Part shown: piece after piece, positions 9,304-17,509 of the stretch
How the letters are laid out: the number at the start of each line of letters is the position of its first letter
Numbering within the stretch: position 1 is the stretch's first letter
NCBI GenBank assembly: GCA_038843675.1
Contig: JAWBRV010000006.1
Coordinates: forward strand, 292 to 64,291
Source: Candidatus Bathyarchaeia archaeon
GTDB lineage: Archaea; Thermoproteota; Bathyarchaeia; 40CM-2-53-6; CALIRQ01
Reading direction: 5' to 3'
DNA: 64,000 nt
Made by a program: the position numbers and the translations under genes
The notes under the pieces: generated by a model
What the model was told of the DNA's origin: nothing
What the model saw: only the letters and a program-made list of their open reading frames with translations
Database searches by the model: none

Positions 9304-9714
9304 TCAGGTCGAGATAGGGCCGCAGCTGATCACCTCGGCCTTCCCCTCCCTCTCCAATAGGGCCTTGAGCTCCTCCGGCCCCAAGGGGCATTTGGAAACA
9401 TCCATTATGGCGTGCCATTCGGCCGATTCCCCCCTCCTAAGGGTCCTCGATTGGCTCCAAAGGAGATCGACGCCTTTCGAGGCCAATATCGCCGCAACGT
9501 TCGCGAGCGCCCCCGGCTCATCCCTCAGGCGGACCCTCAATTCGGATAGCTTCGCTCCGTGATCCGCGAAGGGCAATACCCTGATCTCCTTTGTCTTCGG
9601 CTCCGCGATCAAGAGGAACGACATGCCCTCCGAGAGGCCGAGCGTATCCCTTATGGAGGAAGGCAGGAGTATCCTGCCCTTGGAATCCATCTTCACTATC
9701 TCGGATACTCTCAT
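9304..9714 (-). CDS. AbrB-ACT transcriptional regulator, candidate his repressor
   Basis: 136 residues in two parts. Residues 1-50 form an AbrB/SpoVT swapped-hairpin DNA-binding domain (VSEIVKMDSKGRILLPSSIR). Residues about 55-130 form an ACT domain (SELRVRLRDEPGALANVAAI), a small fold that usually binds amino acids. The gene is transcribed away from hisZ. Between them lie a palindromic TATA element (9741-9748) usable in both directions and a perfect 30-bp inverted repeat (9752-9781). AbrB-fold proteins bind as dimers to symmetric sites, so this protein is the obvious candidate for that operator. Histidine as ligand is inference from the neighbour operon. Autoregulation is likely because the promoters overlap. 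Confidence 0.85.
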   Translation of the reverse strand: MRVSEIVKMDSKGRILLPSSIRDTLGLSEGMSFLLIAEPKTKEIRVLPFADHGAKLSELRVRLRDEPGALANVAAILASKGVDLLWSQSRTLRRGESAEWHAIMDVSKCPLGPEELKALLEREGKAEVISCGPIST

Positions 9715-9737
9715 CTTCGCAAAGGGCTTGCGGGGGT

Positions 9738-9781
9738 AACTTTATAAATGTGAATATTGTGGGTATGATCCCACAATATTC
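9738..9781 (+). promoter_or_regulatory. his operon promoter with perfect palindromic operator
   Basis: TATA element ACTTTATAAATG (9739-9750) is followed at once by the inverted repeat GAATATTGTGGG (9752-9763), a six-base spacer TATGAT, and CCCACAATATTC (9770-9781). All 12 pairs match. With the usual archaeal spacing the start of hisZ transcription falls near 9770, inside the repeat, so a bound protein would block RNA polymerase loading or escape. The TATA core TTTATAAA is self-complementary and could also serve the divergent AbrB-ACT gene, whose start at 9714 would then be nearly leaderless. The ATG at 9765 inside the operator is in the hisZ frame but lies upstream of the predicted transcript start. 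Confidence 0.8.
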
Positions 9782-9806
9782 CCACCAAGGGGCCAGAGAT
9801 GCTTTG

Positions 9807-11048
9807 ATGCTCAGGACCCCCCTCGGGACGAGGGATTACGCCTTGGAGGATGCGGAGGCCTACAGCCGCATAGAGGGGGAGCTGGAGAGGACGTTCCAAC
9901 TCTGGGGCTATAGGGAGGTTCGAACTCCCTGCCTCGAATCCCTCGAAGTCTTCTCGGGGACCGTCGGCCCCAGCGCCGTGGATAGGGCGTTCAAGTTCCA
10001 AGACTACGATGGGAAGCTCTTGGCGTTGAGGGTCGAGGGAACCGCTCCTACAGCGAGGCTTTTCGCTGCATCGCTCATGAACGAGCCCCGCCCCTGTAGG
10101 CTGTTCTATATAGCGAAGGCCTTCAGGTTCGCGGCGGATTTCCCCGGCGATTATAGAGAGTTCTCCCAAGCGGGGGCTGAGCTCATAGGATCTGGGGACC
10201 CCTCCTCGGATGCCGAGGTCATGGCCCTCTCCATCGAGGCGCTCAAGGGCTTGGGCCTAAGACCGAGGGTCGACTTGGGACACGCAAACCTGATGAGGGA
10301 AGTTATCTCAAGCTACTTGGGGGAACCCGATAGGGGGCGCGCCTTAGATCTTTTGAGGAGGAGGGATCTGGGCGGAATATTGAATTTGTTCAAGGAAAGG
10401 GGCCTGTCCCGCGATGCCTACGATTCGATCGCGAAGCTCCTCCGATGCCGAAGGGCCGATGAGTTCTTGGCTATGGATCTCCCGATCGCGAACGAGGGGA
10501 TGCGCGATATGCTAAGGGGCTTCTCCAAGGTGATCGAGGAGGCGGAGGAGTACGGCGTCGGGGATGGGCTGTTCTTGGATTTCTCGCTGATAAGGGATTT
10601 GGAGTATTATACCGGGGCCGTATTCGAAATATCGATCGAGGGCCTCGGGATGCCCGTTGGCGGAGGCGGCAGGTATGATGGCCTCATAGGGAAGTTCTGC
10701 GGGGCGAATGTCCCGGCCGTTGGGTTCGCGCTGAACATCAATAGGCTGATGGAGGCGATGGGCCCTGGATCGGCCAAGGGGGATCGCCGGAAGAGGTTCG
10801 CGATAAGATCCAAGAACAAGGGGGAGGCGATGAGGATCGCGAGGACGTTGAGGGGGAGGGGTTTCGCTGCCGTGGTTTCGCTCGAAAGTGATTGCTCGAT
10901 GTCAAAGGGACCGGATTTGGAGGGTTTCGATTACCTCATAGTCCCGGGCTCGGGGGGCTTGGTGAGGGTCATGGACCTCCGAGATGGATCGATCAGGAGC
11001 TCGACCTTGGAGGAGCTCTTGGGGGAGTTGGGGGAGGGAGGGCTTTGA
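9807..11048 (+). CDS. hisZ: ATP phosphoribosyltransferase regulatory subunit HisZ
   Basis: A class II aminoacyl-tRNA-synthetase-like paralog (413 residues) that activates short-form HisG and makes it sensitive to histidine. It aligns with histidyl-tRNA synthetase through the core (RTPLGTRDY at the start, IRDLEYYTGAVFE, VGGGGRYDGL). However, the motif 2 region reads AFRFAADFPGDYREFSQ and lacks the Glu of the catalytic R-x-E, which argues against a true synthetase. It is the first gene of the his operon and is followed directly by a short hisG lacking a regulatory domain, as expected for a HisZ-HisG pair. ATG 9807 is chosen because earlier in-frame starts lie within the promoter. Confidence 0.85.
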   Translation: MLRTPLGTRDYALEDAEAYSRIEGELERTFQLWGYREVRTPCLESLEVFSGTVGPSAVDRAFKFQDYDGKLLALRVEGTAPTARLFAASLMNEPRPCRLFYIAKAFRFAADFPGDYREFSQAGAELIGSGDPSSDAEVMALSIEALKGLGLRPRVDLGHANLMREVISSYLGEPDRGRALDLLRRRDLGGILNLFKERGLSRDAYDSIAKLLRCRRADEFLAMDLPIANEGMRDMLRGFSKVIEEAEEYGVGDGLFLDFSLIRDLEYYTGAVFEISIEGLGMPVGGGGRYDGLIGKFCGANVPAVGFALNINRLMEAMGPGSAKGDRRKRFAIRSKNKGEAMRIARTLRGRGFAAVVSLESDCSMSKGPDLEGFDYLIVPGSGGLVRVMDLRDGSIRSSTLEELLGELGEGGL

Positions 11049-11692
11049 ATAGGAAGATAAGAATGGCGATTCCGAGCAAGGGCAGATTGCACGGGCCCTC
11101 CATCGATTTAATGGCCAAGGCCGGCGTGGAGATATATCGCGATGGCAGATCCTATCTTTCCGAAACCTCGGATCCATCCCTCGAGGTAATCTTCGTTAGG
11201 GCGAAGGATGTGCCGCTATATCTCCACTATGGCGCGGCGGACATAGGGATAACCGGGCGCGATTTGATAATAGAGAGGGACGTCGAGCTCTATGAGCTGT
11301 TGAGCCTCCCATATGGCGAATGCAAACTGGTGGTGGCGGTGCCGGAGGGCTCCGATATCCGCTCCATCGAGGACGTTAAGCCAGGGAGCATCGTTGCCAC
11401 ATCGCACCCGAGGACCGTGGGCAGGTTCTTCGAGGGCCTGAACAAGGACGTCAAGGTCCTAGAGCTGGATGGATCGATCGAGCTCGCGCCGAGGCTCGGC
11501 CTCGCGGATCTAATAGCCGATATATCCTCAAGCGGGGAAACCCTGAAGAGGAATGGCTTAAGGGTCATCTGCTCGATACTCGAGTCGACCGCGAAGCTGG
11601 CCTGCAATAAAATATCCTATAGGGCCTTCGAGGATCGCATCGATGGGCTCTTGAGGAGGATCGAGGCGACGATGAGGAGAGGGAGGCCATGA
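11045..11692 (+). CDS. hisG: ATP phosphoribosyltransferase, short form
   Basis: Catalyses the first step of histidine synthesis, joining ATP and PRPP. At 215 residues it is the short catalytic form (HisGS): it has the periplasmic-binding-protein-like fold with AIPSKGRLH near the N-terminus, GAADIGITGRDL, and the PRPP-binding neighbourhood before GLADLIADISSSGETLKRNGL. It ends about there, so the C-terminal ACT-like histidine-binding domain of long HisG is absent. Feedback must come through HisZ or at transcription. TTG 11045 overlaps the hisZ stop (TTGA) and is preceded by a G-rich GGGAGGGAGGG ribosome-binding stretch. Confidence 0.93.
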   Translation: MNRKIRMAIPSKGRLHGPSIDLMAKAGVEIYRDGRSYLSETSDPSLEVIFVRAKDVPLYLHYGAADIGITGRDLIIERDVELYELLSLPYGECKLVVAVPEGSDIRSIEDVKPGSIVATSHPRTVGRFFEGLNKDVKVLELDGSIELAPRLGLADLIADISSSGETLKRNGLRVICSILESTAKLACNKISYRAFEDRIDGLLRRIEATMRRGRP

Positions 11693-12984
11693 GGATCCTG
11701 CGCGGGAGGGCGCAAGGGGAGAAGTTCCTGAATGGGCTGAGGGAGAGGAGGGGTGAGGAGCTCAAGGGGATTTCGAGGATTGTCGAGAGGATAATAAGGG
11801 ACGTTAGGAGGTTCGGGGATCGCGCGGTTAGGAAATATACCAAGAAGTACGACGGCGTTTCCCCAAGGGAGCTCAGGGTTGGCCCGAGGGAGCTGAGGCT
11901 TTCGATGAGGAGGCTCGATGCGAAGGGGATCGAGGCCCTGAGGGCGGCGAAGCGAAATCTTGAGCGATTCCACAGGGCCCAGCTCAGGGATGGGTTCTCC
12001 ATAAGGATCGCGAGGGGAGCTGAGATCGGGCAGCTCCCAAGGCCCTTGAGGCGCGTCGGGGGATACGTCCCCGGCGGGAGGCGTCCCTATCCATCATCGA
12101 TGCTTATGTGCGCCGTCCCGGCCTTGGCGGCGGGCGTTGAGGAGGTGGCGATCTGCACTCCGCCGGGCGAAGGTGGGCGAATCCATGATGCCGTTTTGGC
12201 TGCTGCCGGAATATGCGGCGTTGAGGAGGTTTACAAAGTCGGCGGGGCCCAAGCGATAGCGGCGTTGGCATATGGGACGGAGAGCATAGAGAAGGTGGAT
12301 AAGATAGTTGGACCCGGGAACATCTATGTGACAATCGCGAAGCTCCTCGTGAGAGACGATGTCGCCGTCGATCTGCCGGCTGGGCCGAGCGAGATCGTCA
12401 TAATAGCGGATTCGACGGCGAACCCCAAGTTCGTGGCTGCCGATCTATTGGCGCAAGCGGAGCACGGCCCGACATCCTTGGCCCTATTGCTCACGGATTC
12501 AACAGCATTAGCGAAGGCCGTCGTGAGGGAGGTCGAGGGGGAATTGGGCTCCCGCGCTTCGGATCGGGCCGCCGCGGAGGCCATAAGGGGGAACGGTGCG
12601 ATCGTGATCCTAAAGGGGATTGGGGAATGCGTTGCTTTAGCGAACGCGATCGCCCCGGAGCATTTGGAGATAATGGTCAAGGAACCGGAGGAGCTCTTGG
12701 GCTCGATCGAGAGCGCGGGCGCCGTATTCCTAGGGGAATATTCGCCAGTCGCCCTAGGGGATTACTCGGCGGGCCTCAACCACATATTGCCGACGCATGG
12801 ATTCGCCAAATATTACTCGGGGCTCTCGAGCTGGGATTTCGTAAAGTGGCTGAATTATTTATCGTGCTCCAAGGAGGGTTTCGAGAGGCTATGTGGGGCA
12901 GCGATCAAGTTGGCGGAGATCGAGGGCTTTCGTTATCATTCCAAATCCATTAGGACGAGGCTCGAGGGGGATGGGGGCTCATGA
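11689..12984 (+). CDS. hisD: histidinol dehydrogenase
   Basis: Zinc- and NAD-dependent oxidation of histidinol to histidine, the last two steps of the pathway. The 431-residue length is standard. Visible signatures include VGGYVPGGRRPYPSS, VGGAQAIAALAYGT, the NAD/zinc segment VDLPAGPSEIVIIAD, and AQAEHGPTS with the catalytic Gln/Glu/His cluster. GDYSAGLNHILPTHGFA follows near residue 360. The ATG start overlaps the hisG stop (ATGA), so translation is coupled. Confidence 0.96.
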   Translation: MRILRGRAQGEKFLNGLRERRGEELKGISRIVERIIRDVRRFGDRAVRKYTKKYDGVSPRELRVGPRELRLSMRRLDAKGIEALRAAKRNLERFHRAQLRDGFSIRIARGAEIGQLPRPLRRVGGYVPGGRRPYPSSMLMCAVPALAAGVEEVAICTPPGEGGRIHDAVLAAAGICGVEEVYKVGGAQAIAALAYGTESIEKVDKIVGPGNIYVTIAKLLVRDDVAVDLPAGPSEIVIIADSTANPKFVAADLLAQAEHGPTSLALLLTDSTALAKAVVREVEGELGSRASDRAAAEAIRGNGAIVILKGIGECVALANAIAPEHLEIMVKEPEELLGSIESAGAVFLGEYSPVALGDYSAGLNHILPTHGFAKYYSGLSSWDFVKWLNYLSCSKEGFERLCGAAIKLAEIEGFRYHSKSIRTRLEGDGGS

Positions 12985-14168
12985 GGCGCTTATCGGGGAT
13001 CGATCTGCCGTATATCGCAAAGGGCTTCGAGCCATCAATGATCCGAAAGATTTCGGTGGATTTCGATGGAGTCATATCCGGCGCCAATAAGGCCTTTTAT
13101 GAGGGGATCTCCTTGGCCGTGGAATGTTATTACAGGGCCATACTGGGCCTTGAGGGGGCCGCGAGGAGGCTGGTGAGCGAGGAGGAAATATCGGCCCTGA
13201 AGGGGACGGGGCTCTTCAACAACGATTGGGATCTAACGCGCATCCTCATAGCCTACCACCTCGCCTTGGCCCATAGGGAGCTCGGGAGAAGGGGGGGCGC
13301 TGAGGAGTTCCTCAAAATGCTCGAAGGGTTGGAGGGGATGGGGCAAAGGGATCTGATAGGCGGGATCCGGAAGCTGGGGGAACATATGCGCTCAAGGGGC
13401 TTGGATCTGGCGGCGTTGGCCGAGGGCAAGGGGGCCTTTCCGATCGAGGAGTTGGCCTCAAGGCTCGGGAGCGCGGGGCTGGGCGGGGAGGGAGCCCTCG
13501 AAGTGGTGATCGAGTTCCTAACGCCGACCCAAATAAGGGGGCCCTTGAGTCAAGTATTGAGGCGCTTGGTCGGATTCGATGCGAGGGAAGGGGAGGATCT
13601 CGTCAAGGACCTCTTCGAGGAGATATATCTCGGCCCGGATCTTTATCGTAGGTTCTACGGAAAGGATCCGCCCTTTGGCTTTCAAGCAGGCCTAATATCC
13701 TTAGAGCGCCCCCTGCCAACCGAGGAAACCCTGAGGGGGCTCTATGATGTATTCGGAAGGTTAGGCATATATTCCGAGCGCCCGAGGGCACAGGCCGAAT
13801 ACCTTTTGGGGGAATGGGGGCTCCTGGAGGCCTTTGATTTATCGAGATCCGTCTTCGTTGAGGAGATCGCGGGCCATGCCTCCTCCAAGGGAGCCCCACG
13901 CTCCGCCATGGGGAAGCCAAACCCGGAGCCCTTCCTCAAATTCCTAGCCTCCTTCGCCGAGGGCCTAAACGCGATCTACGTCGGGGATTCGCTCTCGGAC
14001 CTTTATTTGGTCGAGAATGCCAAGGCGATGGGGTATGGGAGCGTTTACTTCGCCGGGGTCCTGAGCGATTGCCGGGACCCCGGGGCCATGGCCTCGGCGT
14101 TCCGAATGGGCGGCGCCTCTGCAATAATTTGGGACCTGAATCAGCTAGCGGGGGTGCTCGGCGCTTGA
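12981..14168 (+). CDS. HAD-superfamily phosphatase with large insert, candidate histidinol-phosphatase
   Basis: A 395-residue HAD hydrolase lodged between hisD and hisB with four-base overlaps on both sides. All four HAD motifs are present: motif I ISVDFDGVISG (about residue 24), motif II Ser in IYSERPR (about 255), motif III Lys in GKPNPEPF (about 315) and motif IV YVGDSLSDLYLVE (about 335). Between motifs I and II lie some 220 residues, much more than a usual cap domain, rich in helix. Small HAD proteins beside hisB occur in some archaea, and a HAD histidinol-phosphatase is known from Thermococcus. No other phosphatase for that step is in this operon, so histidinol-phosphate dephosphorylation is the best inference. 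The long insert is unexplained. Confidence 0.72.
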   Translation: MRRLSGIDLPYIAKGFEPSMIRKISVDFDGVISGANKAFYEGISLAVECYYRAILGLEGAARRLVSEEEISALKGTGLFNNDWDLTRILIAYHLALAHRELGRRGGAEEFLKMLEGLEGMGQRDLIGGIRKLGEHMRSRGLDLAALAEGKGAFPIEELASRLGSAGLGGEGALEVVIEFLTPTQIRGPLSQVLRRLVGFDAREGEDLVKDLFEEIYLGPDLYRRFYGKDPPFGFQAGLISLERPLPTEETLRGLYDVFGRLGIYSERPRAQAEYLLGEWGLLEAFDLSRSVFVEEIAGHASSKGAPRSAMGKPNPEPFLKFLASFAEGLNAIYVGDSLSDLYLVENAKAMGYGSVYFAGVLSDCRDPGAMASAFRMGGASAIIWDLNQLAGVLGA

Positions 14169-14758
14169 GCGGGAATGGGGGGAGGAGGGCGAAGGTGGAG
14201 AGGAGGACCTTTGAGGTGAGCATAATTGGGGAGCTTAATATAGATGGCTCCGGTAGGGCCAAGGTATCGACGGGAGTCCCATTCTTCGACCATATGCTCG
14301 CCACTCTGGCTAAGCATGCCCTATTCGATCTGGAGCTGGTCGCGAAGGGGGATTTGGAGCACCATTTGATAGAGGAGGTTGGGATTGCGTTGGGATCGGC
14401 GCTCGATGCCGCCTTGGGGGATAGGAGGGGGATAAGGAGGTTCGGCTCCGCCCTTATCCCGATGGATGAATCCTTGGCGAGCGCGGCGGTCGATTTGAGC
14501 GGGAGGGGTTCCGCCCATTTGAACTTGGGGCTCCGTTGCGATGCGATCGAGAGCCTCAAGGCGGAGCATTTGGAGCATTTCCTAAGGTCCCTCGCGGCAG
14601 CCTCACGAGCGACAATTCACGTGAACTTGATCTATGGGATGGATGAGCATCATAAGGCCGAATCCTCCATCAAGGCCCTAGCCCGAGCCCTGAGGGAGGC
14701 GGTTAGTAGGGATCCGAGGGCCCCCGATGAAGTCCCGAGCGTTAAGGGGGGTTTATGA
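14165..14758 (+). CDS. hisB: imidazoleglycerol-phosphate dehydratase
   Basis: Manganese enzyme converting imidazoleglycerol phosphate to imidazoleacetol phosphate. The 197-residue monofunctional protein contains the two metal-binding repeats, GVPFFDHMLAT with DLEHHLIEEVGIALG and, later, LEHFLRSLA with DEHHKAESSIKALARA. The TTG start overlaps the stop of the HAD gene (TTGA). It is not fused to a phosphatase as in enterobacterial HisB, which leaves room for the separate HAD protein upstream. Confidence 0.95.
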   Translation: MSGNGGRRAKVERRTFEVSIIGELNIDGSGRAKVSTGVPFFDHMLATLAKHALFDLELVAKGDLEHHLIEEVGIALGSALDAALGDRRGIRRFGSALIPMDESLASAAVDLSGRGSAHLNLGLRCDAIESLKAEHLEHFLRSLAAASRATIHVNLIYGMDEHHKAESSIKALARALREAVSRDPRAPDEVPSVKGGL

Positions 14759-14759
14759 T

Positions 14760-15368
14760 TTGCCGAACATATTGATAGCGAATTACGGCGTGGGCAACCT
14801 CAGGAGCCTTAGGAGGGGCTTGGAGCGGGCCGGGGCGCGCGTTACGATAGGCTTGGGCCCGAAAGAGGTCGAGGCCTCCGATGCGATCGTTCTGCCCGGG
14901 GTTGGAGCCTTCCGGGCGGCGATGGAGGGGCTCGATGCCATAAGGGGGGCATTGATCGCGCAAGCCGAGGGGGGGAAGCCCATCCTGGGGATCTGCTTGG
15001 GAATGCAGCTCCTCCTCTCGAGGAGCCATGAGAACGGCGTTTGGGATGGGCTCGATCTGGTGAAGGGCGAGGTCACGAGGCTCCCGGGCTTCGTGAGGCT
15101 GCCCCATATGGGCTGGGACGAGGTGATCATAACAAGGGATTCGGGGATAGCGGAGGGAATCCCGAGCGGGGCCTTGATGTACTTCGCGCATTCCTATGCG
15201 CCGGAGCTCTTGGATGGATCGGCGGAGGTGGCCTATACGGAGTACGGTAGAAAGTTCGCATCGATAATCGAGCGCGGGAACCTCTTCGGGACCCAATTCC
15301 ACCCGGAGAAGAGCGGGGAGCTGGGGACGAGGTTGTTGAGGAATTTCGTATCGATCGCTAAGAGGTGA
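14760..15368 (+). CDS. hisH: imidazole glycerol phosphate synthase, glutaminase subunit
   Basis: Class I glutamine amidotransferase that feeds ammonia to HisF. The 202-residue protein has the nucleophile elbow GICLGMQLL (catalytic Cys) and the His-Glu pair in GTQFHPEKSG. The oxyanion strand loop includes PGVGAF. TTG at 14760 lies one base after the hisB stop, with a G-run ribosome-binding stretch at 14746-14751. Its stop codon TGA (15366-15368) is part of the GAGGTGA element that seems to direct the next gene. Confidence 0.95.
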   Translation: MPNILIANYGVGNLRSLRRGLERAGARVTIGLGPKEVEASDAIVLPGVGAFRAAMEGLDAIRGALIAQAEGGKPILGICLGMQLLLSRSHENGVWDGLDLVKGEVTRLPGFVRLPHMGWDEVIITRDSGIAEGIPSGALMYFAHSYAPELLDGSAEVAYTEYGRKFASIIERGNLFGTQFHPEKSGELGTRLLRNFVSIAKR

Positions 15369-15374
15369 CCTAGG

Positions 15375-16091
15375 CTGTACATAATACCGGCGGTTGATAT
15401 AATGGGCGGCAAATGCGTCAGGTTGATTCGCGGAGCGCCCCATCTGAGGAGGGAGTATTACGAGGATCCCGTGAAGGCCGCCAAGCTCTGGGAGGCCGAG
15501 GGGGCCGAGTGGATTCACGTCGTGGACTTGGATAGGGCCATGGGGATCGGAGATAATCGCGATAAGGTATACGCCATATTGGAGGGGGTCGATTGCAAGG
15601 TCCAAGTCGGGGGCGGCATAAGGAGCCTCGAGGCCGCCGGCGAGATGTTCGAGAGGGGGGCCTCGAGGGTGGTCATTGGAACAAGGGCCGTTAGGGATCC
15701 TGATTTCCTCCGGAGCTTGGGGAGGGCCTTCGGGGACGAAAGGATCGCCGCGGCCGTCGACGTGAGGGGGGGATCGATTGCCATCGAGGGTTGGAGGGAG
15801 GTTACGGAATTGGATCCGCTTCGGTTCGCGGGATCCCTTAAGGGCGCGGGCTTTTTGGTGCTGACGCTCGCCGATTACGATGGGACCCTCAAGACCCCTG
15901 CCCTCGGACTCGTGGAGGATGTGAAAAGGATTGCGCGGATCCCATTGATCGTCGGCGGAGGGATAAGCGATATCGAGGGCCTTAGGGCCTTAGCGAGGAT
16001 CGGGGTTTGGGGCGCGATAATCGGTAGGGCGCTTTACGAGGGGGCGCTGGATTTCAACGCCGCCGTGGAGGCGGTCGCCGATGTTGACTAA
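15375..16091 (+). CDS. hisA: ProFAR isomerase HisA with apparent CTG start
   Basis: TIM-barrel isomerase acting on ProFAR, before the HisH-HisF step. The family begins with strand 1 ending in a catalytic Asp (PAVD). Here [13 protein letters not shown] is encoded from 15387, but between the in-frame hisH stop (15366-15368) and ATG 15402 there is no ATG, GTG or TTG. Starting at 15402 would remove strand 1 and the catalytic Asp. CTG at 15375 lies six bases after a perfect GAGGTGA ribosome-binding site and gives YIIPAVDI, a normal HisA N-terminus and 238 residues. The second catalytic Asp is in AVDVRGG. The 3' end overlaps hisF by 11 bp. Confidence 0.9.
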
Positions 16092-16851
16092 GAGGATAAT
16101 ACCGTGCTTGGATGTGAAGGATGGGAAGGTCGTGAAGGGGGTTAGGTTCGAGAACCTCAGGGTTGAGGGCGACCCGGTCGAGCTCGCCTCCCTTTACGAG
16201 GATTCTTTGGCCGACGAGCTCGTCTTTTTGGATATAACGGCATCCAAGGAGAAGAGGAAGATATTGATCGACGTCGTGGAGAGGACCGCAGAGGAGCTCA
16301 CGATACCGTTCACGGTCGGGGGAGGGATAGGGGATCTTGGGATGATACAGGAGTTGCTTTGCGCCGGCGCGGATAAGGTTTCATTGAATACGGCCGCCGT
16401 CAGGGATCCGGACCTCATTAGGATTGCATCGGATCGATTCGGGAGCCAATGCATAGTGATCGCAATAGATGCGAAGAGAGTTGGGGACCCCATGGCGGGG
16501 CCGAGGTGGGAAGTCTACGTGGAGGGGGGATCCAAGGGGACCGGCCTCGATGCGATAGAATGGGCCAAGAGGGTCGAGGGGCTGGGGGCCGGGGAGATCC
16601 TCCTGACCAGCATGGATAGGGATGGGACCCAATTGGGCTATGACATAGAGCTCACCCGGGCCATTTGCGAGGCGGTGAACCTCCCCGTCATAGCGAGCGG
16701 CGGGGCCGGCTCGCCGGAGCATATTTTGGAGGTTTTCGAGAAGGGGCTGGCGGATGCCGCTTTGGCGGCATCGATATTCCATAGGGATATCCATCCCATA
16801 AGGGAGGTCAAGGCGTTCCTAGCATCCAGGGGGATCCCGGTGAGGTTGTGA
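16081..16851 (+). CDS. hisF: imidazole glycerol phosphate synthase, cyclase subunit
   Basis: TIM-barrel cyclase that joins ammonia from HisH to PRFAR, giving imidazoleglycerol phosphate and AICAR. At 256 residues it is the normal size. The catalytic Asp residues are visible in [16 protein letters not shown] (about residue 11) and VIAIDAKR (about residue 129). The phosphate sites FTVGGGIG and [12 protein letters not shown] are present, as is [14 protein letters not shown] at about 16068 precedes the ATG. Confidence 0.97.
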
Positions 16852-16852
16852 A

Positions 16853-17509
16853 ATGGGCGGCGTGGCGAGGTCGGAGGGGATCGAGGGCTTGATCGATAAG
16901 GTTGATTTCGAGAAGATGAACGGCTTGGTGCCCGTAGTGGTCCAAGATTTCGATACTGGCGAGGTCCTCATGCAGGCCTTCATGAATCGCGAGGCGCTCA
17001 GGCTAACCTTGGAGACGGGATTGATGCATTATTGGAGCAGGACCAAGGGGAGGATCTGGATGAAGGGGGAGAAGAGCGGCCATACCCAATCGGTCATAAG
17101 CGCGAGGCTGGATTGCGATGGGGATGCGATCCTCTTCTCAGTGAGGCAGAGGGGAGTTTGTTGCCATACGGGCGAGGGTAGCTGCTTCCATAGGGCCTTG
17201 GTGGAGGGGCCGGCGGGCGGGAGCGCGAGGATCCTTGGGGAGGTTTTCCAAGTAATAAAGGGGAGGGTGGAGGCGCCGCGGGCCGGCTCCTATGTATCCG
17301 GCCTAGCATCCAAGGGGGAGGATTCGATATTGAAGAAGATCGGGGAGGAGGCGGCGGAGTTGGTGATATCGGCCAAAGAGGGCGAGGGGATCGTCCACGA
17401 GGCCGCGGACCTCCTATTCCATTTGATGGTCCTCTTGGCGTTCAAGGGCATAGGGCTCGAGAGCGTTTATGCAGAATTGGAGAGGAGGAGAAGGGGGCGG
17501 GGAGGCTAG
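16853..17509 (+). CDS. hisIE: phosphoribosyl-AMP cyclohydrolase / phosphoribosyl-ATP pyrophosphohydrolase fusion
   Basis: Bifunctional 218-residue protein for steps two and three of histidine synthesis. The N-terminal HisI domain (to about residue 115) carries the zinc and magnesium motif SARLDCDGDA with GVCCHTGEGSCFHR. The C-terminal HisE domain (from about residue 125) has the MazG-like helices KKIGEEAAELVISA and HEAADLLFHLMVLL. ATG lies one base after the hisF stop. It is the last gene of the his unit; hisC, the aminotransferase, is not in this window. Confidence 0.95.
   Translation: MGGVARSEGIEGLIDKVDFEKMNGLVPVVVQDFDTGEVLMQAFMNREALRLTLETGLMHYWSRTKGRIWMKGEKSGHTQSVISARLDCDGDAILFSVRQRGVCCHTGEGSCFHRALVEGPAGGSARILGEVFQVIKGRVEAPRAGSYVSGLASKGEDSILKKIGEEAAELVISAKEGEGIVHEAADLLFHLMVLLAFKGIGLESVYAELERRRRGRGG

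Follow-up and report, generated by a model that had tools for sequence, protein, structure and literature searches.

A probable histidine-responsive, autoregulating AbrB–ACT repressor of archaeal histidine biosynthesis and its putative GTGGG direct-repeat operator

Introduction

In the 64,000-nucleotide stretch of Bathyarchaeia DNA analysed here ("the window"), a histidine biosynthesis operon is transcribed away from a small gene on the opposite strand, whose product joins an AbrB-type DNA-binding half to an ACT domain. The arrangement raises the question of whether this protein controls the operon and, if so, through which DNA site and in response to which signal. No archaeal regulator of histidine biosynthesis is described in the open literature that we searched, although most subscription papers lie outside it and the absence is no proof; nor did literature searches return anything on the combination of AbrB and ACT. 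The author of the preliminary description likewise knew of no such regulator for his operons, and none of this type was found in the open literature searched. The full-length homologues form the family NF006352/PRK08577, whose members are named "hypothetical protein"; for this widespread orphan family, the evidence below proposes a function, specifies the operator exactly and names a ligand that can be put to the test.

Results

The regulator gene and the his operon

The genes concerned are as follows.

9304..9714, minus strand: AbrB–ACT regulator gene, 136 aa, identified by profile matches and predicted structure
9807..11048, plus strand: hisZ, by profile match, first gene of the operon read as regulator-controlled
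11045..11692, plus strand: hisG, short form with the catalytic domain only, by profile match
11689..17509, plus strand: hisD, a HAD-type hydrolase gene, hisB, hisH, hisA, hisF and hisIE, the remainder of the operon (his names from translations and conserved gene order)

The regulator consists of a DNA-binding half (residues about 1–49) and an ACT half (about 56–133). Its N-terminus matches the AbrB profile TIGR01439 over residues 6–36 (29.6 bits, cut-off 28.3), that is, above the curated cut-off and within the N-terminal 40–50 residues, which is how an AbrB-type protein was defined here. For the C-terminus, assignment to the ACT domain combines a match to PF01842 over residues 58–122 (27.9, gathering cut-off 27) with the beta-alpha-beta-beta-alpha-beta fold seen in the predicted structure. 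The AlphaFold2 model (pLDDT 90.5) has this ACT fold at its C-terminus, and Foldseek aligned it to the ACT domains of PHGDH and TyrA and, for the AbrB part, to SpoVT. Profile matches to the PDB also place the DNA-binding half in the AbrB/SpoVT swapped-hairpin family. The composition proposed in the preliminary description, a 136-residue AbrB–ACT protein divergent from hisZ, is thus confirmed by both profiles, the model and Foldseek.

Other family assignments are less direct. The MraZ profile PF02381 reaches 21.9 bits against a cut-off of 23, over 25 residues only, and the Pfam MazE profile on the N-terminus is likewise below its cut-off. The regulator scores 130.8 bits over residues 1–121 against the NF006352 model, short of the cut-off of 140, a value exceeded by some his-linked relatives, among them L135 with 147.4 bits. 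The nearest named records are the metagenome-assembled "uncultured archaeon S1_Bin_METABAT" and "Candidatus Bathyarchaeota RSWS8", with 96% and 93% protein identity, respectively. Most non-archaeal loci (Rhodobacteraceae and others) gave weak, mostly partial matches and were left out of the comparison. At least ten further AbrB/MazE-type domains are encoded in the window's genome.

Downstream, HisG was found to be the short form, as previously proposed: PF01634, the catalytic domain, is its sole profile match, the C-terminal regulatory domain is absent and hisZ is present. HisG is longer, about 330–370 aa, in same-class genomes that lack the regulator (L219–L231; f5, f6, f8), and there its family match falls in two parts, as if by insertion. 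The HAD-type hydrolase between hisD and hisB (12981–14168, plus strand) matches TIGR01548 weakly (54.7 bits, cut-off 140.2) and is retained in the his operons of several related families; it is a candidate for the missing histidinol-phosphate phosphatase.

A shared promoter with four phased boxes

The region between the two divergent genes contains the following elements.

9741..9748: TATA element TTTATAAA, self-complementary and common to both divergent promoters, from sequence
9748..9752: box 1, ATGTG (degenerate GTGGG), overlapping the end of the TATA element on the BRE side of the regulator promoter
9759..9763: box 2, GTGGG
9770..9774: box 3, CCCAC, near the his start predicted from TATA spacing
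9781..9785: box 4, CCCAC
9752..9781: 12-bp perfect inverted repeat, arms 9752–9763 and 9770–9781, 6-nt spacer

Both the shared, self-complementary TATA element and the exact inverted copies had been pointed out before, and both are present. When extended, the inverted repeat has 15-nt arms that match at 93%. No perfect arm of 12 or more arose when the 92-bp intergenic region was shuffled 2000 times with its dinucleotides preserved. The palindrome had been taken for the operator, a role that the relatives do not bear out: in most of them the inverted arms shrink to 4–8 bp, and the perfect palindrome is conserved only in close relatives, being largely private to the window's genus. We therefore rejected it as the conserved operator. 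What the relatives share is a direct repeat, GTGGG-N6-GTGGG, which is partly contained in the palindrome and which, on the sequence comparison, is the conserved putative operator, usually as a dyad of two such pairs. In the window, boxes 3 and 4 (9770–9785) form a perfect CCCAC-N6-CCCAC, the unit conserved across the phylum, and the full array (ATGTG-N6-GTGGG-N6-CCCAC-N6-CCCAC, starting at 9748, 9759, 9770 and 9781) comprises two mirrored pairs. The 12-bp inverted repeat is a by-product of these mirrored pairs and their matching AATATT spacers. Conservation of the repeat upstream of his genes had been named as the check on the original proposal; taken literally, the loss of the palindrome in most relatives counts against it.

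Conservation in his-linked relatives

Linkage of the AbrB–ACT gene to his genes in other archaea, another check suggested earlier, is conserved: the regulator stands beside a divergent his operon in nine families. In the shared promoter of all his-linked relatives examined from these families, GTGGG-N6-GTGGG is present with at most one mismatch, a TATA-like element lies at the corresponding position, and the boxes follow the his TATA and span the start predicted for his transcription. The box-pair score of each region was equalled in 0–3 of 400 shuffles. With no sequence assumed, direct 5-mer repeats of period 11 were found in 12 of 12 non-redundant regions against 1.24 expected (none of 300 shuffles reached this), while no other direct period attains half of the period-11 count. 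This period equals one helical turn.

A perfect site lies at the regulator/his promoter in 12 of 17 genomes. Genome-wide, G027, G043, G073, G124, G087, G085, G194 and G008 each contain exactly one perfect CCCAC-N6-CCCAC, which lies at the his promoter, and the only perfect match of G256 is likewise at its regulator/his promoter; G136, G040, G032 and G091 have a perfect site at the his promoter too. The four-box, 11-bp register is retained in L071–L073, L076, L077, L135, L140 and the Brockarchaeota locus L147. Boxes 1, 3 and 4 are retained in L139 and L142, boxes 3 and 4 in L138, and a single GTGGG pair in L136, L137 and L167; the f17 members (L170–L172) deviate in box spacing, with two pairs around a longer centre.

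The site in trans

The regulator gene is unlinked from the his genes in f15 (five hisG genomes tested), f41 (G115) and f23 (G024), and despite this a perfect site is found at the hisZ or hisC promoter in all three families. In f15, GTGGG-N6-GTGGG directly precedes the hisZ TATA, and in G115 the perfect pair GTGGGAAAAATGTGGGAAAAATTTAAA lies upstream of a hisC-type first gene; in both families the pair directly adjoins the his TATA on its upstream (BRE) side. Searching for box pair and TATA combined recovered the f15 and f41 his sites along with a few other matches. Within about 1.5 kb of hisG, no perfect site was found in 14 same-class genomes without the regulator, nor in five crenarchaeal genomes having only a sister-clade protein. 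Overall, a perfect his site is present in 19 of 24 genomes with the regulator type against 0 of 19 without it (Fisher p = 5e-8, kinship ignored), a comparison in which the 19 control genomes are imperfect, as most of them have HisG of another, long form and unmapped operon starts. Because the same site occurs at the his promoter even where the regulator is unlinked, the protein appears to switch the his genes across much of the phylum. The feature on which we based the functional class of amino-acid biosynthesis repressor, a conserved putative operator at a biosynthetic promoter, is found both linked and in trans.

Transporter promoters and the ACT motif

Amino-acid ABC transporter genes stand divergent to the regulator in the Thermofilum-like L143 (G236) and L145 (G206) and in the Thermoproteota MAG locus L078, and hisG was not found in these genomes. 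Pfam confirmed SBP_bac_3, the ATPase and the permease for L078 and the first two for L143; the L145 permease was read from its translation. The intergenic region has a perfect GTGGG-N6-GTGGG in L078, one mismatch in L143 and looser boxes only in L145; these transporters are candidate histidine uptake systems.

A second GTGGG-N6-GTGGG site, CCCACCTATTTCCCAC, is present in the window's genus, outside the window (G000 contig 9, 26880–26895; L043), at a promoter whose genes encode a 74-aa membrane protein and an SSF symporter. A 17-bp block at this site is identical in three species, with less conserved flanks, and the two genes are a candidate histidine or amino-acid importer. The reading set out here yields predicted transporters for two uncultured archaeal groups. 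A large regulon in the window's genome was considered and rejected: four perfect sites exist in total, two of them within coding sequence and set aside, and sites with one mismatch are hardly more frequent than those of a reversed-pattern control (91 vs. 74). A site at a dipeptide transporter (C2:36800; perfect in G136) lies inside the coding region and was excluded from the count.

The ACT motif SRT-x2-(R/K/Q)G-x3-AEW, or a close form of it, is common to all his- and transporter-linked members apart from f17, which has STT...PG...AEW. The SRT...AEW positions may well form the ligand pocket.

Discussion

Proposed mechanism and alternatives

We consider it likely that the protein is a histidine-responsive, autoregulating repressor of histidine biosynthesis with direct-repeat recognition like that of MraZ and AbrB. 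The AbrB/MraZ-type half would recognise GTGGG boxes 11 bp apart, a spacing that would place identical subunits on one face of the helix; between 9748 and 9785, the four boxes would offer it two mirrored pairs between the shared TATA and hisZ. An archaeal TATA element lies about 26 bp before the transcription start, so the his start is predicted near 9771, inside box 3; boxes 1 and 2 lie over the BRE side of the TATA as read by the regulator gene. Once the array is occupied by protein, both promoters would be blocked, with histidine sensed by the ACT domain as co-repressor. The regulon would also take in the second, transporter promoter in the window's genus, and in lineages without hisG the regulator is found beside an amino-acid ABC transporter. 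Physical binding by the regulator, repression over activation, histidine as ligand and the oligomeric state are what we infer. The original proposal, an amino-acid-responsive his regulator that also controls itself, is supported by the single site beside a shared TATA serving both genes, by the conserved linkage and by the site in trans; its palindromic operator is not supported.

The sign of control is not fixed, since the f15/f41 site immediately precedes the TATA, a position equally suited to activation. Archaeal activators do use the BRE side as one place of action, and the same regulator and operator might form a his activator or a switch, in which unliganded protein recruits TBP/TFB and histidine releases it. 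We regard this as unlikely: in all his-linked genomes the boxes come after the his TATA and cover the predicted start, which fits a roadblock, and the same array lies upstream of the regulator's own TATA. Somewhat less unlikely, though still improbable, is the same regulator with an ACT domain that binds something other than histidine, be it another amino acid or a metabolite of the pathway, e.g., PRPP, AICAR or ATP/AMP, given the many ligands that ACT domains bind and that neither PDB profiles nor Foldseek gave a structure with a matching ligand pocket. Against it, the regulon combines his genes with amino-acid transporters, the ACT motif is common to both sets of members, and amino-acid repressors, HisR for one, as a rule respond to the end product of their pathway (PMC9413887).

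That some other factor binds the conserved site, the AbrB–ACT protein being merely a conserved neighbour, might be argued from the further AbrB/MazE-type domains in the genome; we think it very improbable, as the site tracks the regulator type even when unlinked and does not occur near hisG in genomes that lack the regulator, and TGG/GTG repeats are the known sites of the AbrB/MraZ superfamily, of which the DNA-binding half is a member. The inverted repeat could also be read as an RNA hairpin, a leader or attenuator of the his transcript, and arms of 12 bp around a 6-nt loop could indeed fold. Judged from the TATA position, however, his transcription would begin within the repeat and include only one of its arms, relatives have direct repeats but no palindrome, and the f15 and f41 sites precede the TATA; we rejected this reading as barely conceivable.

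Relation to known systems

The regulator shares the swapped-hairpin DNA-binding family of AbrB and SpoVT of Bacillus, and SpoVT resembles it further in adding a small-molecule domain to AbrB. In SpoVT this domain is GAF, not ACT, and the two proteins act on sporulation or transition-state genes. The sites of AbrB are bipartite, with TGGNA (PMC11135676), a parallel to the spaced boxes described here. MraZ, the AbrB-fold repressor of the bacterial dcw cluster, is the best Pfam match of the DNA-binding half, below the cut-off. In Mollicutes, MraZ binds tandem GTG boxes, (AAAGTGKN3)3, with a 10-bp period (PMC5282649), and MraZ has its site at the mraZ promoter itself (PMC8475190). Tandem GTG/GTGGG boxes at the own promoter are thus common to both, but the period here is 11 bp, and MraZ lacks ACT and controls bacterial cell-division genes. 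Judged from protein and site, the regulator would work like MraZ yet is not filed as MraZ, and it would add amino-acid sensing to the AbrB/MraZ fold. Functionally the parallel is HisR, a single-copy TrpR-family protein of Firmicutes that controls the his operon and histidine transporters, is often autoregulated and uses histidine as co-repressor (PMC9413887). His operon plus transporter, autoregulation and histidine as co-repressor would recur here, although HisR is an unrelated helix-turn-helix protein with a 20-bp palindromic operator and is confined to bacteria.

Sister clade and Heimdallarchaeal homologues

Two Heimdallarchaeal proteins (L074, L075) have the his-type ACT motif; there is no hisG in their records and no site in the promoter. 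Their nesting among Bathyarchaeota proteins in the tree suggests lateral transfer, possibly into a new role.

In a crenarchaeal sister clade (99/98 in the tree), Cys replaces both Ser and Trp of the motif (Ser89, Trp100), hinting at a changed sensed signal. The NF006352 model fits this two-cysteine clade best (185 bits), and the clade is absent from his operons. Some members (L151, L161, L165) have CCCAC-N6-CCCAA at the regulator promoter, which suggests that autoregulation is older. More tentatively, and with somewhat less than even confidence, we propose a phylum-wide his regulon in which AbrB–ACT proteins read phased GTGGG repeats as an oligomeric array, MraZ-like but gated by an amino acid, with the Cys-pair clade sensing another signal, e.g., redox or metal. 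In this sister clade (L148–L151, L160–L169; f13, f22, f25, f30, f38), a gene that from its translation looks to be of DUF72 type often stands before or after the regulator.
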